In this document: one piece after another, positions 7,658 to 30,646 of the stretch
How positions within the stretch are numbered: the stretch's first letter is position 1
How the letters are laid out: every line of letters starts with the position of its first letter
Virus record (IMG/VR): IMGVR_UViG_3300047496_000268
Span: 1 to 42,328 of that record
DNA length: 42,328 bases
Direction: 5' to 3' (one strand)
Source of the DNA: a virus
Notes under the pieces: generated by a model
What the model saw: the letters and a program-made list of their open reading frames with translations, nothing else
Database searches by the model: none
Told to the model about the DNA's origin: nothing
Made by a program: the position numbers and the translations under genes

Positions 7658-7972
7658 ATGGCAAAATTAACTGCTAAAGCTCGTAAGGCTGTCCCCAAGA
7701 GCGAATTTGGTCTACCGGGCGAGAAAAAGTACCCGATGCCAGACCGTGCCCACGCTGCTAACGCGAAAGCTCGCGCCACTCAGCAAGAAGAAAAAGGCAA
7801 TCTTAGCCCTGGTGCTAAGGCTAAAATTGACTCAAAGGCTAACAAGATTTTGAAGTCAAAAAAGACCAACACCCGGTCTATGACCCCGTCAAAGGTCAAA
7901 CAAACTGCTGCTCGCATCACCTCACGTCTCTCTGCCAAAAGTAAGAGAAAAACTGAAGTAGGATTCGACTGA
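7658..7972 (+). CDS. Small basic protein, 104 aa
   Basis: An AAGGAGG ribosome site precedes ATG 7658. The protein is highly basic (Lys/Arg/Ala-rich, for example SKANKILKSKKTNTRS and SRLSAKSKRKTE) and lacks hydrophobic stretches. It resembles in composition the basic 97-residue protein at 37967 between portal and scaffold. Binding to nucleic acid in the virion is an inference from charge alone. Confidence 0.7.
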   Translation: MAKLTAKARKAVPKSEFGLPGEKKYPMPDRAHAANAKARATQQEEKGNLSPGAKAKIDSKANKILKSKKTNTRSMTPSKVKQTAARITSRLSAKSKRKTEVGFD

Positions 7973-7976
7973 TACT

Positions 7977-8462
7977 ATGGGGGTGAGCCTACATAAAAAA
8001 CATCCAAATTTATTCAGGATGATACTGCTCGTAGCGGTATCTAACCTGACTATTGCTAGTTTTGTAGCACTCGATTCTCCCAAGGCTTCAATTAGTTTTA
8101 CGAGAATTCTTAGTATTGGTCTTGTCCATCACCCTATTTTCTGGGTAACTCTTTTTACTGTATCTGGCATTCTTTTGTTACTGGGGTCGTTTGGATGCAA
8201 TAAATATATGTTCGCCCGCATTGGTCTGGTTATGAGTGCTGGGATAGGCAGCTTTTTAGCTCTTGGTTTTTGGCTATCTTACTTTTCCGGCAATGTAGTG
8301 GGGGTTAGTGCGCCAGTCATTTGGACATTTTACACTTTCGTTTGTATTATCAATTCCAGCGAACCTACCGTAAATCCGCTATCAGCTACCCTACAACAGA
8401 ATATTCATACCACTTTGCAGGATGAGACACATACGAACGGAGTGAACAATGTCAGTGTTTGA
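7977..8462 (+). CDS. Integral membrane protein, four predicted TM helices, 161 aa
   Basis: Four hydrophobic segments are visible at about residues 13-33, 45-70, 77-100 and 105-125, with a short basic N-terminus (SLHKKHPNLF) and a polar C-terminus. It lies four bases after the basic protein and overlaps the next gene by 14 bases. Its place before the lysozyme suggests a lysis or holin-related role, but a superinfection-exclusion role would look the same. No family is recognised. Confidence 0.7.
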   Translation: MGVSLHKKHPNLFRMILLVAVSNLTIASFVALDSPKASISFTRILSIGLVHHPIFWVTLFTVSGILLLLGSFGCNKYMFARIGLVMSAGIGSFLALGFWLSYFSGNVVGVSAPVIWTFYTFVCIINSSEPTVNPLSATLQQNIHTTLQDETHTNGVNNVSV

Positions 8463-11948: not shown

Positions 11949-12461
11949 TTATTTGTCTATTTCAAGTGTAACCCGAACTTTATCGCGGTACAAGTTGAAA
12001 CTGCTAAAGGTTGCCCTTGTGTGAGTGTCATCCTGATCCACGATTTCTACGCCTAAAGCCGTGAAGCTATGGGGCGCAACCTCGTTCAGACCTTCGTCAA
12101 TTATGAAGACTGATTTGAAGTTTCGCTGCTGCAAATAGGCAGCAATCGTCCGGATATGCTCATCGTCTCTGGCTTCCATAATTAGCTTTTTGTAGAGCTT
12201 GCCTTTATACCATTTGCCAAGCATCTCTACGTTACTAATTCGGAAAGCTTCTACGGCAGCGTGAGCAGCCTGAGCAGCTAATTTACCGGTTGTCATCCCC
12301 AGGCTTTTGTTCACGAAGATGTACATCGCTGTTCGGGGTAGGGGCTCCGGTGGAGTTGCCGGACCGGGTGGCTGGGTTCTTGCCAAGGACTCTACGACTC
12401 CACTTAACGCGGGCATATTTGCCAGCGCGCTTTCCTTTGGTGTCTCGGTGTCGTTCTTCAT
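11949..12461 (-). CDS. Pth2-type peptidyl-tRNA hydrolase, 170 aa
   Basis: From residue 46 on (MYIFVNKSLGMTTGKLAAQA) the protein follows the Pth2 family, known mainly from archaea and eukaryotes: G-K-L-A-A-Q-A-A-H-A-A motif, a WYKGKLYKKLIMEA strand and an IIDEGLNEVAPHSFTALGV segment in place of the family's D-A-G-x-T block. Pth2 cleaves peptidyl-tRNA to recycle tRNA. The N-terminal 45 residues are Pro-rich and unrelated. The start at 12461 has an AAAGGA site; ATG 12326 would give only the domain. Linkage with about 29 tRNA genes makes tRNA recycling during infection plausible. Confidence 0.82.
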   Translation of the reverse strand: MKNDTETPKESALANMPALSGVVESLARTQPPGPATPPEPLPRTAMYIFVNKSLGMTTGKLAAQAAHAAVEAFRISNVEMLGKWYKGKLYKKLIMEARDDEHIRTIAAYLQQRNFKSVFIIDEGLNEVAPHSFTALGVEIVDQDDTHTRATFSSFNLYRDKVRVTLEIDK

Positions 12462-12793: not shown

Positions 12794-12995
12794 GATCCCT
12801 CCTGACTTTGTGGGTTGCGTACTTAATTTTGAAAATCTTTTGCTCTAAATAGCGGTAAATATGCTTTCGCAACGGAGCCTCGCTGTAGGGCACTAGAAGC
12901 GTGCCGTGCTTGGCGCAAGGTAGTATGATGCCGGTTTCGGGAAAAGGGCAGAAACTATTGCAGCGCATTTTTGGGCAAACTGGTAAATCTTCCAT
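12783..12995 (-). CDS. Small Cys-rich protein, 70 aa
   Basis: Four cysteines fall in the first 28 residues (LPVCPKMRCNSFCPF and LPCAKHG), a spacing that could bind one zinc ion. The C-terminal half is a basic helix. The start is shared with the stop of the kinase gene (TAATG-type overlap), so it is co-translated with it. Function unknown. Confidence 0.65.
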   Translation of the reverse strand: MEDLPVCPKMRCNSFCPFPETGIILPCAKHGTLLVPYSEAPLRKHIYRYLEQKIFKIKYATHKVRRDHEH

Positions 12996-13417
12996 TAGTG
13001 TTCCTCCGCTAAATATCTATCAAACATTTCATGAATCCGCTTGGCTCCCACCGGCTTAAATCTTGTCTGGTCGCGCTGTATGCAGTCTTCAAGCGGGGTG
13101 TCGAAGAAAATCGGTTTGAACTCTACCTGTAAATCTCTGGCTATTTTCTGGTACCGCAGCGCGTGTTTTGGATGCAAATTGGTGTTGTCCACGATCACAT
13201 CAAATCCACCTATCAGCCACTTATGAATCAGATAGTCCTGGATTCTCTTGATCTCCTTCTCGTTGCGTGGAGTCCATTTACCGGCATCAATCATTTCCCG
13301 GAGTTCATCCTGGTTGACGCGCTTCACGTTGGTCTGAGCCAGGACTTCTTTTTTAGCCCAGGTAGTTTTGCCGGAGCCTGGCAAGCCTTTCAGCATCCAG
13401 AGTGTGTTTTTACTCAT
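12995..13417 (-). CDS. P-loop polynucleotide kinase-like protein, 140 aa
   Basis: The P-loop GLPGSGKTTW lies at residues 11-20. It is followed by VNQDELREM, VIVDNTNLHPKH (about residue 77) and the lid segment DCIQRDQTRF, then RYL near the end. This order matches the 5'-kinase domain of T4 polynucleotide kinase and related AAA_33 proteins, which move the ATP gamma-phosphate to a 5'-OH end. The 3'-phosphatase domain that is fused to it in T4 is absent, but an HAD protein is encoded at 23633. RNA repair is an inference. Confidence 0.82.
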   Translation of the reverse strand: MSKNTLWMLKGLPGSGKTTWAKKEVLAQTNVKRVNQDELREMIDAGKWTPRNEKEIKRIQDYLIHKWLIGGFDVIVDNTNLHPKHALRYQKIARDLQVEFKPIFFDTPLEDCIQRDQTRFKPVGAKRIHEMFDRYLAEEH

Positions 13418-13676
13418 TGAGAGCTACTGCCCCTTTCTGCCAGCGATTCAATGGAACCACTAGCTTTTTTTCGCCACCCAGCATTCTGATGAAGCCGTAT
13501 TTTACCGCGTCTTCCCTGCTGATTACGTAAGTTTGCTCTGGCGTTATGAACTCTATTAGCCGGGTATCTATCGGCATTTCGTCTAGGTTGACAGTCCAAG
13601 CGCCCCCAGCCATACGGAGCTTTTGGCTCTCGTCTTCGCGCTTGGTGTAAATGCCGTTCTTGTAGGTGCCGTGCAT
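13410..13676 (-). CDS. Unknown protein, 88 aa
   Basis: The start overlaps the upstream stop (TAATG at 13676) and its end overlaps the kinase start. The protein is a mix of charged and aromatic residues (WTVNLDEMPIDTRLIEF, YVISREDAVKYGFIRMLGG) with no known motif or membrane segment. Gene density and coupling support that it is real. Confidence 0.65.
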   Translation of the reverse strand: MHGTYKNGIYTKREDESQKLRMAGGAWTVNLDEMPIDTRLIEFITPEQTYVISREDAVKYGFIRMLGGEKKLVVPLNRWQKGAVALNE

Positions 13677-14017
13677 TAGGTCAGAATCTTTCCACCTGGA
13701 TCATGTGAAGGCAGCCCACCGGGTTTGTTGGGCATCATAGCAGCCGGTACGATTTTTTGTTCCTCTCCGACTAGGTGCCATACGCCCTCGCCTTCGTTGC
13801 TGATGAATGAAGTTACATAACGCTGGCAGTCTCCAGCCGTCATTGAGTCGCCGTCTTTTTTAACCATAAAGTGCAGGTTAAGCCCAGATTTGGTTAGCGG
13901 GTCGGTAACAGCCCAGATTGTGACTGCGTTGTCCTGAAGCCCCATAGTGAGCAACCGGACACAATTGTAAATATGAATTGAACCTTTATCGTCAGCTTGA
14001 TGTTTAGTTATTTTCAT
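13676..14017 (-). CDS. Unknown protein, 113 aa
   Basis: ATG 14017 has GGAGG six bases upstream, and overlaps the preceding gene's stop by 14 bases. The sequence (IHIYNCVRLLTMGLQDNAVT, GLNLHFMVKKDGDSMTAGDC) looks like a small alpha/beta fold. No motif was recognised. Confidence 0.7.
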   Translation of the reverse strand: MKITKHQADDKGSIHIYNCVRLLTMGLQDNAVTIWAVTDPLTKSGLNLHFMVKKDGDSMTAGDCQRYVTSFISNEGEGVWHLVGEEQKIVPAAMMPNKPGGLPSHDPGGKILT

Positions 14018-18408: not shown

Positions 18409-18450
18409 TCTAAGCACTATTTATGACGTGATAATCATAAATACAAAGGC

Positions 18451-18476
18451 AAAGAAAAACGCCACTAGGCGTGGCG
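18451..18476 (-). terminator. Intrinsic terminator, minus strand
   Basis: On the minus strand the stem CGCCAC/GTGGCG with a five-base loop is followed by TTTTTCTTT. It would stop transcripts coming leftwards from the 19857-20084 gene and insulate early operon A. On the plus strand the hairpin lacks a T run. Confidence 0.65.
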
Positions 18477-18487
18477 CTATGACGTGA

Positions 18488-18497
18488 TGTATATACA
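18488..18497. promoter_or_regulatory. Isolated TGTATATACA site
   Basis: One exact copy of the palindrome that is clustered at 28.7-30.4 kb. It lies about 75 bases downstream of the TATAGT promoter and directly after the second TATGACGTGAT repeat, where a bound protein could act as a roadblock. Confidence 0.5.
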
Positions 18498-18594
18498 CTA
18501 TCACCAGTAGCAAATCTTTGTCAATACCCAAAGCTTAAATTCCGGACGGGTTAAGAACCGGAAGCCACCGAAACCTCATGAAGGGAACGGAAAT

Positions 18595-19273: not shown

Positions 19274-19348
19274 GGGGATGCCAGGTTTGATGCCTCTGAG
19301 TCTACAAAGCTTACGCAGACGTGGGTTCGATTCCCACCATCTCCACCA
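19274..19348 (+). tRNA. tRNA-like element with tmRNA-like ends
   Basis: GGGGATG pairs with CATCTCC, followed by ACCA, and the T arm GTGGG-TTCGATT-CCCAC is canonical. The rest is not: the D arm lacks the GG pair and the middle gives a weak arm whose loop CTACAAA would read ACA. The two ends closely resemble those of tmRNA (GGGGxTG and ACGTGGG...CTCCACCA), but there is no room for a tag reading frame. It may be a degenerate tRNA or a minimal tmRNA acceptor mimic. Confidence 0.45.
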
Positions 19349-19362
19349 TTTAGATTTCGGAG

Positions 19363-19368
19363 TATAAT
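19363..19368 (+). promoter_or_regulatory. -10 box of a leaderless gene
   Basis: A perfect TATAAT lies six bases before ATG 19375, so the transcript probably begins at the start codon. The -35 region is poor. Confidence 0.55.
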
Positions 19369-19374
19369 GTGCTT

Positions 19375-19734
19375 ATGAATAGCTCAGTACAACCGCCAAG
19401 CCTTGAACAACTTTTGTACTTGATACCTGCCTACCTGGACGATCCAGACGGACGGGTGTTTTTGCATTTGCAGCCTTGGCATGACCGGCGCGGTTGGAAT
19501 GCTTTTTATGGCGCGGTAGACGAATTCGGCATGGGTGTTCATCCATTCTTCCGGGCGGACGGCAAGAACCCGGTGGAAGCTTTATTAAACTTAAACGGTA
19601 TGCTGAAAATGGCAAACTGGAGTTTGGAGCCTGACCCAAATGGGCAAGTGGAAGAAGAATCGCGGGAACCAAAAACGCTGGGCGAAGAGACACCTGATAA
19701 ACCAGCACGGGGCGATCTGCCAAGTATTGGGTAA
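19375..19734 (+). CDS. Unknown protein, 119 aa, probably leaderless
   Basis: ATG 19375 is placed exactly where transcription should start from the TATAAT at 19363. Residues 1-85 look folded (EQLLYLIPAYLDDPDGRVFL, WNAFYGAVDEFGMGVHPFFR). The last 30 residues are acidic and overlap the HNH gene in another frame. No recognised family. Confidence 0.65.
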   Translation: MNSSVQPPSLEQLLYLIPAYLDDPDGRVFLHLQPWHDRRGWNAFYGAVDEFGMGVHPFFRADGKNPVEALLNLNGMLKMANWSLEPDPNGQVEEESREPKTLGEETPDKPARGDLPSIG

Positions 19735-19897
19735 CCACCCGATTGATAAAATGCACGACATCACACTAGACCACGTAGTGCCCAAAGCACACGGGGGTTC
19801 TGATTTATTAGACAATTTGCAGTTGGCTTGCTATAAGCATAACCACGAAAAGGATTCTATGACGCAGGAGGAATTTCTGGAATTTCAGGAGCTATAG
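19640..19897 (+). CDS. Small HNH endonuclease, 85 aa
   Basis: The motif LDHVVPKAHGGSDLLDNLQL then ACYKHNHEK (residues 43-70) is a full HNH core: D-H, N, and the final H-N. It is one of three HNH-type genes in the genome. The N-terminus is basic (MGKWKKNRGNQKRWAKRH). Its position beside the tRNA arrays suggests either homing or a role in DNA processing; phage HNH proteins near tRNA genes are common. Confidence 0.82.
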   Translation: MGKWKKNRGNQKRWAKRHLINQHGAICQVLGNHPIDKMHDITLDHVVPKAHGGSDLLDNLQLACYKHNHEKDSMTQEEFLEFQEL

Positions 19898-20084
19898 GGA
19901 AGGGGATCACTTCGGCTTGGAGGGGCATCTGTCCGCTTTGTTGGTACATAACTGTTTCTAAAAAAGCTAGGTCGCCGATCAGTCGGGCTTCTTTCTCAGC
20001 CAGGTAACTGTGCATTGCCTCAACCTCTGGCTGAGTTAAGCGCTCCACGTTGAATTTGATCCCATCTATGCGTCTCGTAGTCAT
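19857..20084 (-). CDS. Unknown protein, 75 aa
   Basis: ATG 20084 (MTTRRIDGIKFNVERLTQPE) is preferred over the open frame to 20120, which would run into the -35 box of the tRNA array promoter; AAGGAGT lies 12 bases before it. Residues 1-50 are charged helix; the end is Pro-rich (PFPIAPEIPEIPPAS). It overlaps the HNH gene end on the other strand. Confidence 0.55.
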   Translation of the reverse strand: MTTRRIDGIKFNVERLTQPEVEAMHSYLAEKEARLIGDLAFLETVMYQQSGQMPLQAEVIPFPIAPEIPEIPPAS

Positions 20085-20107
20085 AAGCACTACTGTACTC
20101 CTTGGAT

Positions 20108-20137
20108 TTGACAAGCGCAAATACTTTGTGCTAGGGT
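20108..20137 (+). promoter_or_regulatory. Promoter of tRNA array 1
   Basis: TTGACA (20108-20113), an 18-base spacer ending TGC, then TAGGGT (20132-20137) and AAAAT. The promoter of array 2 at 21457 has the same -35, the same spacing and the same TGCTAGGGTA -10 region. The start codon of leader peptide 1 is seven bases past the -10 box, so the RNA is probably leaderless. Confidence 0.72.
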
Positions 20138-20143
20138 AAAATC

Positions 20144-20212
20144 ATGACAACTATATGCCAGAACCCGGTCAACCGCAAACACGATAATATCGTGTCGGTT
20201 CTTGGTGCATAA
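20144..20212 (+). CDS. Leader peptide 1 (tRNA array 1 attenuator), 22 aa
   Basis: ATG to TAA with no ribosome site, starting at the predicted transcription start. Residues 4-17 read ICQNPVNRKHDNIV. Every one of these amino acids has its tRNA in the array just downstream, and ten of that array's eleven isotypes are represented (only Trp is missing). Codon region CCAGAACC pairs with GGTTCTTGG further on in the ORF, a possible protector hairpin. The 3' end pairs with the terminator arm. The composition and structure indicate a classic attenuator leader whose translation is the signal. Confidence 0.72.
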   Translation: MTTICQNPVNRKHDNIVSVLGA

Positions 20213-20274
20213 GTTGTAGCACATTTTAAGAAGCAACAAGCATCAATGAACCGCCAACCACAGGCGGTTTTTTT
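20196..20274 (+). promoter_or_regulatory. Antiterminator/terminator switch 1
   Basis: Leader segment CGGTTC (20196-20201) pairs with GAACCG (20248-20253), extended by GGTGC/GCATC (20204-20208 with 20240-20244) and GTTG/CAAC. The partner GAACCG is also the 5' arm of the terminator AACCGCC/GGCGGTT (20249-20255 with 20263-20269), which is followed by seven T. The two folds exclude each other. A ribosome at the leader stop covers the first segment and favours termination. Confidence 0.72.
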
Positions 20275-20350
20275 GTACCTAGCGCCCAGTCTTTGGTGGG
20301 AGACGGCGTAGACAGCATACGGTTAAAGGCTCCGTACCGGCTAGGTTTTT

Positions 20351-20425
20351 AAGAGATTAGTGTCAATGGCAGCACGGCGGATTCCAAACCCGCAAGCGAG
20401 AGTTCAAATCTTTCATCTCTTGCCA
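20351..20425 (+). tRNA. tRNA-Trp (CCA)
   Basis: Acceptor AAGAGAT/ATCTCTT with G73 and encoded CCA. The anticodon loop TTCCAAA reads CCA and the T loop TTCAAAT is canonical. First tRNA of array 1. The stretch 20275-20350 before it has weak hairpins but no gene. Confidence 0.88.
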
Positions 20426-20428
20426 CGT

Positions 20429-20506
20429 CAGGGTATAGCTCACGTTTAGCAGAGCGCTGGGTTTGGGACTCAGAGGCAGGGGGGGCAGCACCTCCTACCC
20501 TGACCA
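20429..20506 (+). tRNA. tRNA-Pro (TGG)
   Basis: Acceptor CAGGGTA/TACCCTG, A73, CCA. Stem CTGGG/CTCAG with loop TTTGGGA reads TGG. The T stem GGGGG/CCTCC closes a loop GGCAGCA that lacks the usual TTC. Confidence 0.85.
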
Positions 20507-20511
20507 GATAA

Positions 20512-20585
20512 CGGGATATAGCTCAATAGTAGAGCACACGCCTGATACGCGTGTGACCAAGGGGCAGAACCTTGTATCCCCACCA
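20512..20585 (+). tRNA. tRNA-Ile (GAT)
   Basis: Stem CACGC/GCGTG with loop CTGATAC reads GAT. T stem CAAGG/CCTTG has the unusual loop GGCAGAA. Acceptor CGGGATA/TATCCCC leaves a C-C mismatch at 1-72. CCA is encoded. Confidence 0.82.
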
Positions 20586-20588
20586 AGT

Positions 20589-20663
20589 GGACCCGTAGCT
20601 CAGAGGCAGAGCATCCGCCTTTTAAGCGGAACGGCGAGATTTCGAAATTCTCTGGGTCCTCCA
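20589..20663 (+). tRNA. tRNA-Lys (TTT)
   Basis: Acceptor GGACCCG/TGGGTCC, T73, CCA. Stem TCCGC/GCGGA with loop CTTTTAA reads TTT. T loop TTCGAAA. Confidence 0.92.
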
Positions 20664-20666
20664 TAA

Positions 20667-20739
20667 CCGCGTGTAGCTCAGTGGTTAGAGCGCCCCGCTT
20701 TGGGCGGGGAGGTCGGTGGTTCGAATCCACCCTCGCGGG
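20667..20739 (+). tRNA. tRNA-Gln (TTG), CCA not encoded
   Basis: Acceptor CCGCGTG/CTCGCGG with G73 followed by CTA rather than CCA. Stem CCCCG/CGGGG with loop CTTTGGG reads TTG. A shifted reading would give TGG (Pro), but it breaks the stem; Gln also agrees with the Gln codon in leader peptide 1. T arm GGTGG-TTCGAAT-CCACC is canonical. Confidence 0.72.
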
Positions 20740-20743
20740 CTAT

Positions 20744-20817
20744 CGGCAATTAGCTCAATGGGAGAGCGCTCGTCTTATATGCGAGTGACGACAGATCGAA
20801 ACTGTCATTGCCCACCA
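20744..20817 (+). tRNA. tRNA-Ile (TAT)
   Basis: Stem CTCGT/GCGAG with loop CTTATAT reads TAT, for the rare Ile codon ATA that occurs in leader peptide 1. T arm GACAG-ATCGAAA-CTGTC. Acceptor CGGCAAT/ATTGCCC has a C-C mismatch at 1-72. CCA is encoded. Confidence 0.82.
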
Positions 20818-20893
20818 GCCCGGCTAGCTCAACGGCTAGAGCGTCTATCTTACACGTAGAGGGTTGTAGGTTCGAATCCTACGCTGGGTACCA
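20818..20893 (+). tRNA. tRNA-Val (TAC)
   Basis: Starts on the base after the previous CCA. Acceptor GCCCGGC/GCTGGGT, A73, CCA. Stem TCTAT/GTAGA with loop CTTACAC reads TAC. T arm GTAGG-TTCGAAT-CCTAC. Confidence 0.92.
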
Positions 20894-20897
20894 ATTT

Positions 20898-20972
20898 ACT
20901 TCGCTAGGCTAACGGATAAACCTTTTGGCTTCGAACCAAACATTGCCCGTTCGAATCGGGCGCGGGGTACCA
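20898..20972 (+). tRNA. tRNA-Arg (TCG)
   Basis: Acceptor ACTTCGC/GCGGGGT, A73, CCA. Stem TTTGG/CCAAA with loop CTTCGAA reads TCG. T arm GCCCG-TTCGAAT-CGGGC. Confidence 0.9.
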
Positions 20973-20984
20973 ATTTAACATTTT

Positions 20985-21064
20985 GTGGAGAACGAAGAAG
21001 AAGTAGACGATTCGCCGTCCTGTGAAGACGGAGGAAGCCAGCGCGCGTCTGGTCGTTCACCCCA
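20985..21064 (+). tRNA. tRNA-His (GTG), degenerate ends
   Basis: Stem CCGTC/GACGG with loop CTGTGAA reads GTG, and the 3' end CCCCA gives the C73 expected for His. The acceptor pairs over only about five bases (GTGGA with TTCAC), the D arm is poorly formed and the T loop is CGCGCGT. It is probably a real but divergent tRNA. Confidence 0.6.
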
Positions 21065-21069
21065 GGTAT

Positions 21070-21144
21070 GCTGTTGTAGCTCAAGAGCAGAGCACTCCCC
21101 TGTCACGGGAGAGGTTGCGGTGGCGGAATCCGTCAGCAGCGCCA
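21070..21144 (+). tRNA. tRNA-Asp (GTC)
   Basis: Acceptor GCTGTTG/CAGCAGC, G73, CCA. Stem CTCCC/GGGAG with loop CTGTCAC reads GTC. The T loop GGCGGAA is non-canonical. Confidence 0.87.
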
Positions 21145-21149
21145 AATAA

Positions 21150-21223
21150 TCTTTGATAGTTTAGTGGTAAAACGCCTCCCTGTTAAGGAGTTGTCCCAGG
21201 TTCGAGCCCTGGTCGAAGAGCCA
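21150..21223 (+). tRNA. tRNA-Asn (GTT)
   Basis: Acceptor TCTTTGA/TCGAAGA, G73, CCA. Loop CTGTTAA reads GTT. T arm CCAGG-TTCGAGC-CCTGG. Confidence 0.92.
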
Positions 21224-21227
21224 AGAT

Positions 21228-21302
21228 GGAACGTTGGCTGAGTGGTAAAAGCTTTCGATTGCAAACCGAAGAACACTGGTTCGACTCCAGTACGTTCCTC
21301 CA
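21228..21302 (+). tRNA. tRNA-Cys (GCA)
   Basis: Acceptor GGAACGT/ACGTTCC, T73 as usual for Cys, CCA. Loop TTGCAAA reads GCA. T arm ACTGG-TTCGACT-CCAGT. Confidence 0.93.
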
Positions 21303-21305
21303 TAA

Positions 21306-21376
21306 ACCTCCGTCCTAGGACAGGTGAAAGGTGTTCTAAGCCTTAATGTAGGGTTCGACTCCTTACGGGGGTACCA
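21306..21376 (+). tRNA. tRNA-Arg (TCT)
   Basis: Acceptor ACCTCCG/CGGGGGT, A73, CCA. Stem AAGGT/GCCTT with loop GTTCTAA reads TCT. The D arm is short (CCT/AGG). T arm TAGGG-TTCGACT-CCTTA. Confidence 0.85.
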
Positions 21377-21377
21377 A

Positions 21378-21454
21378 GGGCTCATAGCTCAGCCGGTCAG
21401 AGCATCTGCCTCTTAAGCAGGATGTCCTGGGTTCGAACCCCAGTGAGCCCTCCA
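21378..21454 (+). tRNA. tRNA-Lys (CTT)
   Basis: Acceptor GGGCTCA/TGAGCCC, T73, CCA. Loop CTCTTAA reads CTT. T arm CTGGG-TTCGAAC-CCCAG. Last tRNA of array 1; the next promoter starts two bases later, with no terminator between. Confidence 0.95.
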
Positions 21455-21456
21455 AT

Positions 21457-21486
21457 TTGACAAACTAATTAGCACTATGCTAGGGT
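21457..21486 (+). promoter_or_regulatory. Promoter of tRNA array 2
   Basis: TTGACA (21457-21462), an 18-base spacer ending in TGC, then TAGGGT (21481-21486) and AGAA. It matches the array 1 promoter in both boxes and spacing. The leader ATG lies nine bases after the -10 box, so there is almost no untranslated leader. Confidence 0.72.
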
Positions 21487-21495
21487 AGAAAAGTT

Positions 21496-21555
21496 ATGAG
21501 TAACTACGAGCAACAGACAGAAGCCGGTACCACCCTCCACGAGGTTTCTTCTTAG
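21496..21555 (+). CDS. Leader peptide 2 (tRNA array 2 attenuator), 19 aa
   Basis: The peptide reads MSNYEQQTEAGTTLHEVSS. Its core EQQTEAGTT uses only Glu, Gln, Thr, Ala and Gly, the isotypes of the array downstream. Both Gln codons (CAA, CAG) and both Glu codons (GAG, GAA) appear, matching the four separate Gln and Glu tRNAs of that array (TTG, CTG, CTC, TTC). Segment AGAAGCC inside the ORF can pair with GGTTTCT near its end, a possible protector. No ribosome site is visible. Confidence 0.75.
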   Translation: MSNYEQQTEAGTTLHEVSS

Positions 21556-21614
21556 CACCCGTACATAACCACCCAAATAGAAGAAGAGACCTCGGCGAGC
21601 ACCGAGGTTTTTTT
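21540..21614 (+). promoter_or_regulatory. Antiterminator/terminator switch 2
   Basis: The last codons of leader 2, CGAGGTTTCTTCTT (21540-21553), pair with AAGAAGAGACCTCG (21581-21594) over 14 continuous pairs with one G-U. The second strand contains the 5' arm of the terminator ACCTCGG/CCGAGGT (21589-21595 with 21602-21608), followed by a T run to 21614. The two structures are mutually exclusive, the defining feature of an attenuator. Confidence 0.8.
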
Positions 21615-21628
21615 GTACCTTTCAATCT

Positions 21629-21704
21629 GGCGGATTAGTTCACCTGGCTAAAATAACTCCCTTGTAACGAGTAGCACTCGGTTCGAGTCCGAGATTCGCC
21701 TCCA
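21629..21704 (+). tRNA. tRNA-Thr (TGT)
   Basis: Acceptor GGCGGAT/ATTCGCC, T73, CCA. Loop CTTGTAA reads TGT. T arm CTCGG-TTCGAGT-CCGAG. First tRNA of array 2. Confidence 0.9.
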
Positions 21705-21709
21705 AATAT

Positions 21710-21783
21710 GCGTGTGTATGCTAGTGGTAAACTGCTTTCCTTCCAAGTAAGCGCTCTCGGTTCGATTCCGAGTACACGCACCA
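21710..21783 (+). tRNA. tRNA-Gly (TCC)
   Basis: Acceptor GCGTGTG/TACACGC, A73, CCA. Loop CTTCCAA reads TCC; the anticodon stem has one T-T mismatch. T arm CTCGG-TTCGATT-CCGAG. Confidence 0.88.
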
Positions 21784-21786
21784 AAC

Positions 21787-21861
21787 GGGGATATAGTTAA
21801 ATGGCTATAACAATTCTTTTGCAAGGAGTAGTTCTGAGTTCGATTCTCAGTGTTTCCACCA
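21787..21861 (+). tRNA. tRNA-Ala (TGC)
   Basis: Acceptor GGGGATA/TGTTTCC contains several G-U pairs; A73, CCA. Loop TTTGCAA reads TGC. T arm CTGAG-TTCGATT-CTCAG. Confidence 0.88.
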
Positions 21862-21862
21862 A

Positions 21863-21937
21863 CGCCCATTCAGCTAATGGCTAGGCTCACTGTTTTTCAG
21901 ACAGTAAAAGAGGGATCGAAACCCTCATGGGTGACCA
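21863..21937 (+). tRNA. tRNA-Glu (TTC)
   Basis: Acceptor CGCCCAT/ATGGGTG, A73, CCA. Stem ACTGT/ACAGT with loop TTTTCAG reads TTC. T arm GAGGG-ATCGAAA-CCCTC. Confidence 0.9.
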
Positions 21938-22011
21938 CAACGCAGGGACAGATAGCAAGTCGCTGCCCTCTCAAGGCGGAATATCGGGAGCGTAACCCGA
22001 TGCGTTGACCA
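21938..22011 (+). tRNA. tRNA-Glu (CTC)
   Basis: Directly abuts the previous tRNA. Acceptor CAACGCA/TGCGTTG, A73, CCA. Loop CTCTCAA reads CTC. T stem TCGGG/CCCGA with loop AGCGTAA, which lacks the TTC. Confidence 0.85.
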
Positions 22012-22014
22012 TAA

Positions 22015-22091
22015 TGGTTCGTAGACAAATTGGTAAAGTCGCCTGGCTTTGACCCAGGAGCCTGTAGGTTCGAAGCCTACCGAGCCAGCCA
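22015..22091 (+). tRNA. tRNA-Gln (TTG)
   Basis: Acceptor TGGTTCG/CGAGCCA, G73, CCA. Stem CCTGG/CCAGG with loop CTTTGAC reads TTG. T arm GTAGG-TTCGAAG-CCTAC. Confidence 0.93.
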
Positions 22092-22094
22092 TAG

Positions 22095-22169
22095 TGAGGA
22101 GTCGTCTAATCGGTAGGACGCTGGTCTCTGACTCCAGTAATCAAGGTTCGAACCCTTGCACCTCAGCCA
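22095..22169 (+). tRNA. tRNA-Gln (CTG)
   Basis: Acceptor TGAGGAG/CACCTCA with one A-A mismatch, G73, CCA. Loop CTCTGAC reads CTG. T arm CAAGG-TTCGAAC-CCTTG. Confidence 0.88.
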
Positions 22170-22188
22170 AATTTTTGATAATCTAGGT

Positions 22189-22288
22189 GGGTAACATCTT
22201 AATGTAGCAACCATAAGAGCGTGATACTCTCTCGCGAATAGGGTGATAGCCACAAGCATGATGTTGCCACGATTTAACATCACCCTAT
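22189..22288 (+). ncRNA. Structured element / degenerate tRNA-Ile-like sequence
   Basis: GATGTT at 22260-22265 can pair with AACATC upstream (22189-22194), giving a tRNA-like acceptor with G73-CCA and a GAT anticodon loop but no proper T arm. It can also pair with AACATC at 22276-22281. A perfect 10-bp inverted repeat ATAGGGTGAT/ATCACCCTAT (22239-22288) spans the second option. It may be a decayed tRNA or an alternative-fold RNA before leader peptide 3. Confidence 0.4.
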
Positions 22289-22290
22289 AT

Positions 22291-22365
22291 AGCGGATTTG
22301 AGTTCCAGTGAACTCATCGGTCTCATACGCCGACAAGACGGGGGCAGCACCCGTATCCGCAACCA
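22291..22365 (+). tRNA. tRNA-Met (CAT)
   Basis: Stem TCGGT/GCCGA with loop CTCATAC reads CAT. D arm GAGT/ACTC. T stem ACGGG/CCCGT with loop GGCAGCA. Acceptor AGCGGAT/ATCCGCA has an A-A mismatch at 1-72, which recalls the unpaired 1-72 of bacterial initiators; initiator or elongator cannot be decided. CCA is encoded. Confidence 0.82.
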
Positions 22366-22395
22366 AGTTAGATGTAGTTTAAGAAGGTGTACACA

Positions 22396-22455
22396 ATGAC
22401 AAAGCGATTATCGTTTTCAAGTTTGTATCTCTCCCTGGAAAGCGGAGCTTCTTAA
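22396..22455 (+). CDS. Leader peptide 3 (tRNA array 3 attenuator), 19 aa
   Basis: The peptide reads MTKRLSFSSLYLSLESGAS. Its core LSFSSLYLSL uses only Leu, Ser, Phe and Tyr, exactly the four isotypes of array 3. Leu codons TTA, TTG, CTC and CTG cover the TAA, CAA and TAG anticodons; Ser codons come from both the TCN and AGY families, matching the TGA and GCT tRNAs. GAAGGTG upstream may serve as a ribosome site. No clear promoter is seen just before it, so it may be read from array 2. Confidence 0.75.
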   Translation: MTKRLSFSSLYLSLESGAS

Positions 22456-22511
22456 AAGTACCTTATTTGTTCCTTTAGACTAAAGAAGCTCCCAACCGTA
22501 GGGAGCTTTTT
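22444..22511 (+). promoter_or_regulatory. Antiterminator/terminator switch 3
   Basis: The end of leader 3, GGAGCTTCTT (22444-22453), pairs perfectly over 10 bp with AAGAAGCTCC (22483-22492). That second strand holds most of the 5' arm of the terminator AAGCTCCC/GGGAGCTT (22486-22493 with 22501-22508), followed by T residues. Same arrangement as switches 1 and 2. Confidence 0.8.
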
Positions 22512-22515
22512 ATAT

Positions 22516-22589
22516 GTCTTTGTAGCTCAACAGTAGAGCAACCGGTTGAAGCCCGGCGCGAGAGGGTGCGACTCCTTCCGAAGACACCA
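22516..22589 (+). tRNA. tRNA-Phe (GAA)
   Basis: Acceptor GTCTTTG/CGAAGAC, A73, CCA. Loop TTGAAGC reads GAA; the first pair of the anticodon stem is A-C. T loop TGCGACT. First tRNA of array 3. Confidence 0.87.
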
Positions 22590-22592
22590 TAT

Positions 22593-22677
22593 GGCGCGGT
22601 ATACCTCTAAGGACGGGGGGCTGTCTGTAAAACAGTCGTCATTGACTGGCTAGGATCGTTACCTAGGCGCGTCACCA
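22593..22677 (+). tRNA. tRNA-Tyr (GTA)
   Basis: Stem GCTGT/ACAGT with loop CTGTAAA reads GTA. A variable arm GTC-ATT-GAC gives the class II form expected for Tyr. T arm CTAGG-ATCGTTA-CCTAG. Acceptor GGCGCGG/GCGCGTC has a mismatch at 7-66; A73, CCA. Confidence 0.85.
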
Positions 22678-22680
22678 TAA

Positions 22681-22763
22681 GCTCGTATGGCGAAATTGGC
22701 ATACGCGGGGGCATCAAAAGCCCCTCCTTCGGGGTGTAGGTTCGAGTCCTACTACGAGTACCA
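22681..22763 (+). tRNA. tRNA-Leu (CAA)
   Basis: Acceptor GCTCGTA/TACGAGT, A73, CCA. Stem GGGGC/GCCCC with loop ATCAAAA reads CAA. Long variable arm CCTTCGGG. T arm GTAGG-TTCGAGT-CCTAC. Confidence 0.93.
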
Positions 22764-22764
22764 A

Positions 22765-22850
22765 GCAGATGTGGTGGAACGGTATACACAGTTGCCTTAG
22801 AAGCAGCCGTCCTTAGTGGCTTGAGAGTTCGAATCTCTCCATCTGTACCA
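22765..22850 (+). tRNA. tRNA-Leu (TAG)
   Basis: Acceptor GCAGATG/CATCTGT, A73, CCA. Stem GTTGC/GCAGC with loop CTTAGAA reads TAG. Long variable arm. T arm GAGAG-TTCGAAT-CTCTC. Confidence 0.92.
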
Positions 22851-22853
22851 TAA

Positions 22854-22929
22854 GCGGTCATAGCCGAACGGCATAGGCAAGGAGCTTAAACCTCCAAATT
22901 TGATGGTTCGAATCCATCTGACCGTACCA
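22854..22929 (+). tRNA. tRNA-Leu (TAA), short variable arm
   Basis: Acceptor GCGGTCA/TGACCGT, A73, CCA. Loop CTTAAAC reads TAA. The variable region is only about five bases, unlike normal class II Leu tRNAs. T arm GATGG-TTCGAAT-CCATC. Leucine identity relies on the anticodon and on TTA in leader peptide 3. Confidence 0.82.
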
Positions 22930-22932
22930 TGT

Positions 22933-23020
22933 GGAAGGACAAGCCAATTGGCGATGGCAGCAATTTTGAAAATTGCCGAGTGTAACAGCCTTGAGGGTTC
23001 GACTCCGTCTCCTTCCGCCA
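22933..23020 (+). tRNA. tRNA-Ser (TGA)
   Basis: Acceptor GGAAGGA/TCCTTCC, G73, CCA. Stem GCAAT/ATTGC with loop TTTGAAA reads TGA. Long variable arm. T loop TTCGACT. Confidence 0.92.
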
Positions 23021-27522: not shown

Positions 27523-27554
27523 TTGACAAGTTGATCGCGGTTGATGTTCTAATA
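27523..27554 (+). promoter_or_regulatory. 32-bp promoter-like repeat, copy 1
   Basis: TTGACAA-N3-GATCGC-N2-TTGATGTTCTAATA, identical at 27 of 32 positions to 28679-28710. TTGACA and TCTAAT are 19 bases apart. On the plus strand it points into the antisense of the 27558-27869 gene. Confidence 0.5.
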
Positions 27555-28618: not shown

Positions 28619-28678
28619 TACCTTTAGACTATTTATTTATACTAACACCTCTAAGACTGTGCATAACTGTATATACAT

Positions 28679-28710
28679 TTGACAACCGGATCGCCTTTGA
28701 TGTTCTAATA
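28679..28710 (+). promoter_or_regulatory. 32-bp promoter-like repeat, copy 2
   Basis: Second copy of the element at 27523. It directly abuts a TGTATATACA site (28668-28677) and points at the HTH gene, so it may be a second promoter for it. Confidence 0.55.
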
Positions 28711-28740
28711 GTGAACTCAAAAACGCCAAAACCCACCCTA

Positions 28741-28769
28741 TTGCCATATGTATATACAGAGGCTATACT
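28741..28769 (+). promoter_or_regulatory. Promoter of the HTH gene with operator in the spacer
   Basis: TTGCCA (28741-28746), a 17-base spacer and TATACT (28764-28769). The spacer contains TGTATATACA (28749-28758). ATG 28777 lies seven bases after the -10 box, so the transcript is probably leaderless. This is the arrangement of a self-regulating repressor gene. Confidence 0.75.
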
Positions 28770-28776
28770 GCCATTT

Positions 28777-29307
28777 ATGGTAATGACAGCCGATGTAGCA
28801 AAAAAATCACGCGGACAGCAACTTAAAGTCGCCGAGCGCAATGTACTTATTAGCAAGCTCATAGACTACCTTTGCGAAGGCTATGCTAGTACTAACTCAC
28901 TAGCTAAGAAGCTCAGAGTTTCCCGCGCCACAATAGAGGCATACAGACCCCTGGCGGATGAAATAATCGCCAAGACAAAACTAGACCGCAATGTAGTTCG
29001 TAATCTCCAAGTACGTAGAACATACGAGTTAATAGAAATGCTGATGGATGATTTACGAAGCTCAAAAAGCGTGAAAGACCGCGCGAGCATTTACGGCTCA
29101 ATTTATAAGTTTTCCAGTCATCTAGCGTTAATAACAGGGTTAAATGTTGAAACTCACGTCAATGTAGACCCCTCAAAACTGGTTATTATTCGCTCAAGAA
29201 AGCCATCAAAAGGCAATAAAACAGTTATAGAGGCTGATGAGCCCGCAATGCGCGACAGCGTCAATACGTTACCTGTTATTAGTGATGAAGGCGGGTTAGT
29301 TCACTAG
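28777..29307 (+). CDS. HTH DNA-binding protein (regulator or small-terminase-like), 176 aa
   Basis: ATG 28777 is chosen from the leaderless promoter; the open frame to 28573 runs through promoter sequences. Residues 20-50 contain an HTH (YASTNSLAKKLRVSRATIEA). Residues 60-110 are helical (YELIEMLMDDLRSSKSVKDR), then SSHLALITGLNVETHVNVDP. The HTH, helical core and G-L-N-V-E-T end resemble small terminase subunits, and none lies beside the large terminase. However, its own promoter and that of the next operon are covered by TGTATATACA palindromes, which fits a repressor. Both roles are possible. Confidence 0.7.
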   Translation: MVMTADVAKKSRGQQLKVAERNVLISKLIDYLCEGYASTNSLAKKLRVSRATIEAYRPLADEIIAKTKLDRNVVRNLQVRRTYELIEMLMDDLRSSKSVKDRASIYGSIYKFSSHLALITGLNVETHVNVDPSKLVIIRSRKPSKGNKTVIEADEPAMRDSVNTLPVISDEGGLVH

Positions 29308-29881
29308 CCTAGTCTTTTGTATATACAAGTGTCAGAAATCACGGCATTATACACCACTCGCTTAAGCTTGTATATACAGTTATACCCCTGTTAGCACTAT
29401 ATTAAGCCTCAAAAACGAGCCACGTAGAGCCGTTCTAAGGCGTTTTGTATATACAATATGACTATACATACCACTTGCTTGTATATACAACAGTCGCACA
29501 AGGTATATTCTCAGACGTGCTGACTAGGGGTGGAGCGTGTCGCATTGTATATACATAGTGGCATACGCTACATATGGTGTGTATCAATTGGAGCCATAAG
29601 GATTTATCATCATCATTAAATGATAGGCATTGGCTAAGGCGGGGGTGTTTTCAATTGGGTTCCCCAACCCCGTGCCCGCAGTCCCGTTCCATCAAACCTA
29701 GCACGAACGTTTGAGCGTGACTGAATCGTTTGCCTCACAATGCGAGAGACCTGCCTTTGAACCCTTTGTATATACAAATGAAATGGATCACAAAAAATTG
29801 GGGGGTAAGCCAAAATCCGACTTGTATATACAAAAAGAATTACTTATAATGTATATACAAACTAATTGATTAGGAGTAATC
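29308..29881. other. Gene-free control region
   Basis: No convincing reading frame. It holds seven or more TGTATATACA sites in two groups (29318-29555 and 29767-29859). Between them is an AT-rich tract with TTATCATCATCATT and TAAATGATAG, followed by a G/C-rich stretch. Iterated sites next to an AT-rich tract is the usual form of a replication origin, but operators or packaging sites are equally possible. Confidence 0.55.
29822..29850 (+). promoter_or_regulatory. Promoter covered by two palindromes
   Basis: TTGTAT (29822-29827) and TATAAT (29845-29850) are 17 bases apart. One TGTATATACA site overlaps the -35 (29823-29832) and another begins at the last base of the -10 (29850-29859), so a bound protein would block it. 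It drives the 29882-30805 genes. Confidence 0.7.
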
Positions 29882-30091
29882 ATGACTGAAGAACAAATCA
29901 AAGAACTACAAGCTTGGCAGGACGAAGACTTCGGACTGTTCATGCACCGGCTGGCTCAAACCCACGACCAGAATGGTTATAAAAAGGGATCATTCCTAAG
30001 TTTGATGTGGCTGCTTTGGAGAATCCACTCTAAGGCGAAGAAATACGATATGGGCACACTGATGCAGATCAAGCTAGGGAAAGAGCTGTGA
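29882..30091 (+). CDS. Unknown protein, 69 aa
   Basis: AGGAGTAATC precedes ATG 29882. Helical and charged (TEEQIKELQAWQDEDFGLFM) with a Lys-rich end. First gene under the palindrome-covered promoter, so it is a candidate for an early or lysogeny-related function, but no family is known to me. Confidence 0.67.
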   Translation: MTEEQIKELQAWQDEDFGLFMHRLAQTHDQNGYKKGSFLSLMWLLWRIHSKAKKYDMGTLMQIKLGKEL

Positions 30092-30333
30092 AGCGCCTGT
30101 GGGAGGCTCTGATGCTGGTTTATGCCATCCCTCTGCTGGTTATTATCGGCATCGTTTGGCTGATAGCCACGCCGGTCTATTTCGTAATGAGGCATTGGAC
30201 CTGCTGGCGGATTGGGCATTGCTGGCATTTTGATAGCGATTCGTTGGTCGGTCACTGGATTCGCTGTGGACGCTGCAATAAATTGGATGAGTACGTTCCC
30301 GGAGCTCACGAGCCGAAAGGTTATCATGCCTAA
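30088..30333 (+). CDS. Membrane protein with Cys-rich C-terminus, 81 aa
   Basis: Starts with GTG 30088 overlapping the previous stop (GTGA). Residues 8-32 form a membrane helix (MLVYAIPLLVIIGIVWLIAT). WTCWRIGHCWHF and WIRCGRCNKL contain two Cys pairs that may form a zinc ribbon on the cytoplasmic side. Function unknown. Confidence 0.62.
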   Translation: MKRLWEALMLVYAIPLLVIIGIVWLIATPVYFVMRHWTCWRIGHCWHFDSDSLVGHWIRCGRCNKLDEYVPGAHEPKGYHA

Positions 30334-30646
30334 GAAATATCTTTTGTATATACATAACTCGGACCGGTTCGACACTCTAAATGAACGCGGGCAGAAGTCC
30401 AACCTGGTGAACGACTTGCTCGATAAGCATTGGTTGAACATAGAGCAGGTGGCTAAACTGCCCAAATCTAAAAAGCCTTTGAAGGAAGTTGATCCTATTT
30501 TGATTGACCCTAAGCCAAAGGTCATCAAAACTCCAGCCGAGGCAAGCAAAGCAGCCAATGTTGAGACTTGTCCACACGGCTATGCCAAGGGTAACTGTAA
30601 GAAAGCCGATTGCAATAAAAAGTTCGCAGCCTTACAATCCGCGTAG
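30326..30646 (+). CDS. Unknown protein with C-terminal Cys motif, 106 aa
   Basis: ATG 30326 (MPKKYLLYIHNSDRFDTLNE) overlaps the previous gene and has AAAGG upstream. A Lys-rich middle and CPHGYAKGNCKKADC near the end, a likely zinc site, are visible. A TGTATATACA site lies within its first codons, where a bound protein could block elongation. Confidence 0.65.
   Translation: MPKKYLLYIHNSDRFDTLNERGQKSNLVNDLLDKHWLNIEQVAKLPKSKKPLKEVDPILIDPKPKVIKTPAEASKAANVETCPHGYAKGNCKKADCNKKFAALQSA

Follow-up and report, generated by a model that had tools for sequence, protein, structure and literature searches.

Closest described systems

The ribbon-helix-helix (RHH) protein RelB of Escherichia coli recognises the half-site TTGTAATTACAA in relO (PMC2812701); it is one half of a toxin-antitoxin pair and acts on a single operator composed of two half-sites. 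The repressor of mycobacteriophage L5 is an HTH-containing monomer that binds asymmetric 13-mer stoperators, more than 20 of which are found genome-wide, oriented with transcription (PMC9283540). The locus described here lies in a virus contig (IMG/VR record IMGVR_UViG_3300047496_000268), and the whole stretch of 42,328 nucleotides that was analysed is referred to as the window. Since the record carries a 127-bp terminal repeat, the assembly is probably closed and about 42.2 kb long. A ten-base palindrome, TGTATATACA, is repeated in the window, and comparison with other viral sequences makes it likely, in our judgement, that its copies are the operators of a small DNA-binding phage protein encoded at positions 30326-30646.

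The likeness to RelB would consist in a small autoregulator acting at its own promoter on short AT-rich palindromes with TTGTA/TACAA ends. Indeed, the RelB operator word differs from the consensus of the window, TTGTATATACAA, in its centre only. The window departs from the RelB arrangement in having up to 12 dispersed sites, one of them inside a gene, and in their location in the terminase region. Moreover, the adjacent toxin gene that characterises type II toxin-antitoxin systems (RelB/BrnA) was not found: the two operon products that were scanned, those of 29882 and 30326, had no PHROG or Pfam match, and the next genes in several other members of the family are terminase genes. With L5, the locus would share a single phage regulator that acts on many sites, both in promoters and in intergenic positions. 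The initial annotation had likened the repeats to stoperators, but in the form of true palindromes. By the features compared, the locus is not an L5-type stoperator system: the sites of the window are palindromic instead of asymmetric and, with 11 of 12 clustered within 1.7 kb, they are not dispersed over the genome.

The word also shares letters with the centre of the consensus LexA site, a resemblance that we take to be superficial. A reading of the repeats as SOS boxes was rejected, as CTGT-N8-ACAG has one unrelated match in the window (28409) and coincides with none of the 12 sites. Literature searches with TTGTATATACAA and TGTATATACA returned unrelated matches only, among them an E. faecalis Phd-Doc oligonucleotide.

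Number and placement of the repeats

The window contains 12 exact copies of TGTATATACA, which start at positions 18488, 28668, 28749, 29318, 29369, 29446, 29480, 29546, 29767, 29823, 29850 and 30345. Eleven of these lie inside 28668-30354, confirming the earlier count of eleven copies in 1.7 kb plus one at 18488. The claim that this number is far above chance was likewise borne out, since dinucleotide-preserving shuffles of the window yielded 0.02 copies on average and never as many as 12. Under uniform placement, the chance of finding 11 of 12 sites within 1,687 bp is about 5e-15. When one mismatch was allowed, just 2 extra sites appeared in 42 kb versus 0.76 expected, and the word is therefore preserved with almost no degenerate copies. 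All 12 sites are perfect palindromes, and at 5 of them the flanks lengthen the palindrome to 12-14 bp, with TTGTATATACAA as the consensus. The spacing within the cluster is irregular (81, 569, 51, 77, 34, 66, 221, 56, 27 and 495 bp).

As previously claimed, some sites are located in promoters, others in a gene-free region and one within a gene. The gene-free stretch spans 29308-29881, is AT-richer and marks the switch in gene direction. The description of the cluster as lying around an HTH gene (28777-29307, + strand) holds in so far as two of the 11 clustered sites are on the 5' side of this gene; the other nine are all on its 3' side, toward and into the operon that includes the 30326 gene. 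The first candidate operator of the cluster (28668-28677) is immediately 5' of a TTGACA-like element, and the second (28749-28758) lies in the spacer of the putative promoter of the HTH gene, TTGCCA-17-TATACT (28741-28769, + strand), with the ATG 7 bp past the -10 hexamer. In the gene-free region, candidate operators are located directly past the stop codon of the HTH gene (29318-29327), over the -35 hexamer of a leftward promoter-like TATACA-17-TATAAT (29369-29378), at 29446-29455, at 29480-29489 where the site abuts a conserved block starting with GTCGCACAA, at 29546-29555, and at 29767-29776 in the form of a 14-bp palindrome.

The operon at 29882-30646 is preceded by the predicted promoter TTGTAT-17-TATAAT (29822-29859, + strand), written more fully as TTGTAT-17-TATAATGTATATACA. 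Two candidate operators cover it, one over the -35 hexamer (29823-29832) and the other over the -10 hexamer and +1 (29850-29859), and this layout is also found in front of the corresponding genes of L217, L131 and G001. The promoters of the HTH gene and of the operon were assigned from the sequence and a hexamer scan, which for several sites taken alone is near chance. On the + strand, the operon encodes a 69-aa ORF (29882-30091) without PHROG or Pfam match, an 81-aa ORF (30088-30333) whose translation suggests a possible membrane protein, and, as the third gene, the 30326 gene. The latter has no TGTATATACA at its own start codon; a candidate operator lies within it, at +19 from the ATG (30345-30354), in the codons for L-Y-I-H.

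The distant candidate operator (18488-18497) overlaps the -10/+1 region of a putative leftward promoter, TTGACA-16-GATAGT (TTGACA at 18524-18519, GATAGT at 18502-18497), that runs into a terminator-like hairpin. Within 18450-18524 this promoter is followed at once by a GC-rich hairpin and a T run, and its transcript would therefore be just a few tens of bases long. In addition, a direct repeat, TTGACAA-N3-GATCGC-N2-TTGATGTTCTAATA, is present twice only in the window, at 27523-27554 and at 28679-28710, the second copy adjoining the candidate operator at 28668.

Co-occurrence of the repeats with a small gene family

Viral contigs were scanned for paired copies of TGTATATACA on the basis of DNA alone, which retrieved, among others, L131 and L132 with the peptides MPKKYLLYIH and MAKKYLLYIH. 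A second scan of viral contigs with all codons for KKYLLYIH gave 29 stretches; the real genes among them and the 30326 gene of the window together make eight (the other seven being in L131, L132, L136, L217, L226, L356 and L360). TGTATATACA was present beside or in the gene in 8 out of 8 real members, five of the seven outside the window being retrievable via TGTATATACA itself, and in none of the 21 spurious non-gene matches. L356 and L360 were found by the peptide pattern alone and were thus not selected for the repeat.

The sites also keep to fixed positions relative to the ATG, namely -9, -10 or -11 and +19, and often near -26 and -45 too. The sites at -9 to -11 lie at the start codon and cover the -10 box in L131, L132, L136, L217, L226 and L360, and in L356 the site is at -33. 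Candidate operators in the gene's own promoter are thus found across the family, including the operon promoter of the window at 29822-29859. The cleanest layout is that of L217, where TTGACA is followed by 17 bp containing TTGTATATACAA and then by TATAATGTATATACATG. The site at +19 is written as the codons TTG TAT ATA CAY; it is exact in seven of the eight family genes, and TAT ATA is invariant in all eight. Just before it, the codons for K3, K4 and Y5 show synonymous variation. The probability of such codon conservation is about 1e-8 with uniform codons and 1e-16 with the codon use of the window, values that are weakened by the shared ancestry of the genes. The fixed TAT ATA beside varying codons for K, K and Y indicates that the DNA is conserved and not the peptide alone, and the conservation of LYIH is partly forced by the operator itself. 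On this sequence evidence, the repeats track the 30326-type gene, not the HTH gene.

The product of the 30326 gene (106 aa, + strand) was proposed as the binder on account of this co-occurrence. It combines an RHH-like N-terminus with a Cys/His tail (CPHGYAKGNCKKADC), follows the pattern MPKKYLLYIH...KSxLVNxLL...CxxG...C...C and reads MPKKYLLYIHNSD...CPHGYAKGNC. Searches of Pfam, PHROGs and PDB with the family gave no match, and a search of a phage collection gave matches at chance level only. An AlphaFold model with a pLDDT of 57 shows an extended segment (residues 1-11) and two helices (12-17 and 21-43), and Foldseek found no match for it. The first of these helices, helix A, would fall short of its counterpart in classical RHH proteins by about two turns. 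Two further loci of the same type near terminase genes, L125 and L031, encode proteins with the same Cys/His tail that resemble RHH proteins: their PDB profile search gave only two matches, both RHH and both sub-significant (E 0.07 and 0.18), and the match of L125 to Pfam RHH_1 had an E-value of 0.03. L031 was recovered by the family HMM (E 9e-4), and hhalign of the family against L125 and L031 aligned the Cys/His tail alone. As this support is sub-significant and the alignment is restricted to the tail, RHH is our best guess for the fold of the 30326 family.

BrnA/CopG-type RHH genes adjoin paired TTGTATATACAA in the unrelated viral loci L024 (BrnA, Pfam E 1e-18), L168 (RHH_1) and L021 (DUF6290); the 30326 family differs from these in having no Pfam match and in its Cys/His tail. 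When Pfam was run on 10 array-near proteins, RHH-type domains scored above the cut-off in these three only, and the idea that the arrays always go with RHH genes was dropped. In L171 (9134-9415), four copies of TGTATATACA lie within or beside a small gene whose product (NSRAIYIPK...) appears AbrB-like by eye, without Pfam support.

The terminase neighbourhood

Matches to PHROGs and Pfam place the family gene 3' of a small terminase gene in L131 and L356 (PHROG), L226 (Pfam Sf6_terminase, E 4e-36) and, weakly, L360, with a large terminase gene on the 3' side of the family gene. The large terminase subunits (TerL) of the family loci are from different lineages, some being just 24-25% identical to the TerL of the window. 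As judged from these matches, several packaging lineages that are unrelated to each other have the family gene between the genes for the small subunit (TerS) and TerL. Among the listed viral loci with paired TGTATATACA, 31 have a detectable TerL, and in 20 of these the sites are 0-2.6 kb 5' of TerL, as compared to 8.5 expected; some of the TerL query sequences were themselves taken from the family, and kinship was ignored in this count. The literature searches that were made found no paper joining RHH proteins with terminase.

Three noncoding elements of the gene-free region are conserved. The motif CCCCTGTTA/TAACAGGGG (29385-29393) occurs 12 times in family loci versus 1.1 expected, and the motif starting with GTCGCACAA (29493-29516), which is dyad-like in an alignment of relatives, occurs 9 times versus 1.1 expected. 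The third is a GC-rich block, AAGGCGGGGGTGTTTT...CCTAGCACGAACG (29636-29710), seen in an alignment of five relatives. By its position, this block is a candidate packaging (cos-like) element. Divergent phages also have TAACAGGGG, the GTCGCACAA motif and the GC-rich block, which ends in CCTAG, in the interval from TerS to TerL, and all three are candidate packaging elements.

Other arrays in this neighbourhood deserve mention. L022, a contig of 60% GC, has eight copies of TGTATATACA at 2738-2918, mostly 19-22 bp apart and 5' of a TerL. In the apparently related L192, L198 and L207, paired TGTATATACA is found 5' of a WYL-domain gene, the domain being assigned by a Pfam run in L192, about 1.3-2.5 kb before TerL. 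The WYL protein is possibly another regulator that uses the word.

A changed word beside a changed protein

Of the relatives in which the gene-free region is conserved, G001 is the closest, and it has a repeated word of its own, GTACNGTAC, concentrated at 13380-13760. This word overlaps a promoter, TTGACC-16-TATAATGTACGGT-ATG (also given as TTGACC-16-TATAATGTACGGTATG), in front of a small gene whose product is MPQVTVFIRDID...CVHGNIKGKC with the N-terminal strand QVTVFIRD. Its position and the shared tail suggest that this protein is likely the ortholog of the 30326 protein. The QVTVFIRD strand is thereby paired with GTACNGTAC in the same promoter slots that TGTATATACA occupies elsewhere. A changed strand together with a changed word, seen in this one relative, is what would be expected if strand and operator co-evolve. 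In G004 and G005 the small gene is absent from the DNA examined and there is no comparable strong repeat.

In G017 (L112), this place is taken by a third version without homology to the others (7967-8245), where the word ACCGTATCA/TGATACGGT is repeated ten times over TTGACA-17-TATAAT and within the next gene. The product of this gene reads MTDTVKNDTVDDTVKCLNCGKKL...FCSDACK, and the repeated word encodes its D-T-V repeats. Long Ser-Pro-Ser repeat proteins are encoded in the relatives L007 (6350-8300) and L005 (7480-8210); that of L007 immediately precedes TerL, a position taken by other genes in the window.

Which protein binds the palindrome

The initial annotation regarded the HTH protein at 28777 as the obvious binder, with repression or immunity as a possible function. 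This protein is encoded among the sites, two of which flank its promoter, and its structure model contains an HTH. However, its homologues in G001, G017, G004 and G005 (58%, 48%, 39% and 39% identity, respectively) all belong to phages from which TGTATATACA is absent, and the repeats therefore do not track the HTH gene. Seven array-bearing phages show the reverse, since tblastn detected no homologue of 28777 in their fetched DNA and their arrays lie beside another protein. Furthermore, no integrase or lysogeny genes were found among the proteins scanned. The proposed comparison with related phages thus revealed that the repeats are not conserved in close relatives, and on this distribution 28777 was discarded as the binder; its nomination is probably wrong, and we regard a repressor or immunity role at the palindromes as improbable. 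What stood is the broader proposal of a phage regulator that recognises a specific sequence and whose palindromic operators cover promoters and also occur in the gene-free region and within a gene. The 28777 protein is more likely a small terminase subunit than a regulator, a label inferred from its position in the slot where the seven other array-bearing phages have their small terminase gene. Its model, in which a long helical hairpin comes after the HTH, shows the general build of such a subunit. Foldseek gave no significant match for the model (Sf6 TerS at E ~1, which is chance level), hhalign against other TerS proteins was negative, the PHROG terminase matches of its homologues reached E ~0.1 only, and a search of the phage collection with 28777 gave no match.

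Terminase itself, either TerS or TerL, could recognise the palindromes as marks of the packaging site, given that unrelated lineages have arrays in the interval from TerS to TerL and that these adjoin conserved noncoding blocks that may be cos or pac elements. We consider this a weak rival, with little chance of being right, as TGTATATACA is missing from relatives in which the conserved blocks are present and the TerS and TerL proteins are related, and as copies of the word occupy promoter cores and the +19 position in the small gene, which the word tracks across different TerS families. The array might instead be a replication origin with iterons or a partition centromere, with the small protein or a different factor as its binder, both functions having been suggested earlier. 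Its place in an AT-richer gene-free region at the switch in gene direction would suit this, and RHH partition proteins likewise autoregulate from repeat arrays. Yet the spacing of 27-569 bp lacks the regular helical spacing of iterons, no Rep, ParA or ParM was found among the proteins scanned, and the sites at the -10/start codon and in the gene are conserved, unlike those of a free array; an origin or centromere is thus very unlikely. Finally, a host regulator that recognises TTGTATATACAA, for example of the GntR type, might bind the sites, as paired TTGTATATACAA is present in many bacterial chromosomes (Flavobacterium, Colwellia, Bacillaceae). Such paired sites mean that other regulators probably use the word, and therefore that the word alone does not name its binder. 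Against a host protein speak the strict link to the KKYLLYIH gene, the locking of the sites to the coordinates of this gene and the joint change of word and protein in G001, and we would be surprised if this explanation proved correct.

Proposed regulation by the 30326 protein

Our best reading is that the 30326 protein is an RHH-like autoregulator that controls the terminase and late region, the fold and the repression being inferred. It would act as an RHH-like dimer, with the N-terminal strand KKYLLYIH reading the palindrome. Upon accumulation, the protein would block its own promoter and that of the small terminase gene, and thereby time and limit the expression of the packaging and late region. 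The sites in the gene-free region and within the gene may raise the local concentration of the protein or add cooperativity, or they may act as roadblocks to transcription. The overlap of sites with promoter cores would be the anatomy of negative autoregulation combined with repression of the neighbouring terminase gene.

The family may further represent an undescribed type of autoregulator in which the codons for the strand that reads the DNA contain an operator of the same protein, tying specificity to the word, and which forms a module between TerS and TerL of unrelated phages with a word that shifts along with the strand. We put this forward tentatively, as a possibility that we would not yet bet on. 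The timing of terminase and late genes is usually ascribed to activators, antitermination or a dedicated polymerase. If the proposal is true, a small self-limiting regulator between TerS and TerL would be a separate and recurring solution to late-gene timing. The uncatalogued 30326 family would gain a predicted target sequence, and the operator in the N-terminal codons would offer a clean system for joint specificity changes of a regulator and its site.

Other genes in the window

ARAGORN identified 21 clustered tRNA genes at 19274-23020, of which the one at 19274 (anticodon ACA) is called a tmRNA by Rfam. The window also encodes a peptidyl-tRNA hydrolase, PTH2, at 11949-12461 and a polynucleotide kinase at 12995-13417.
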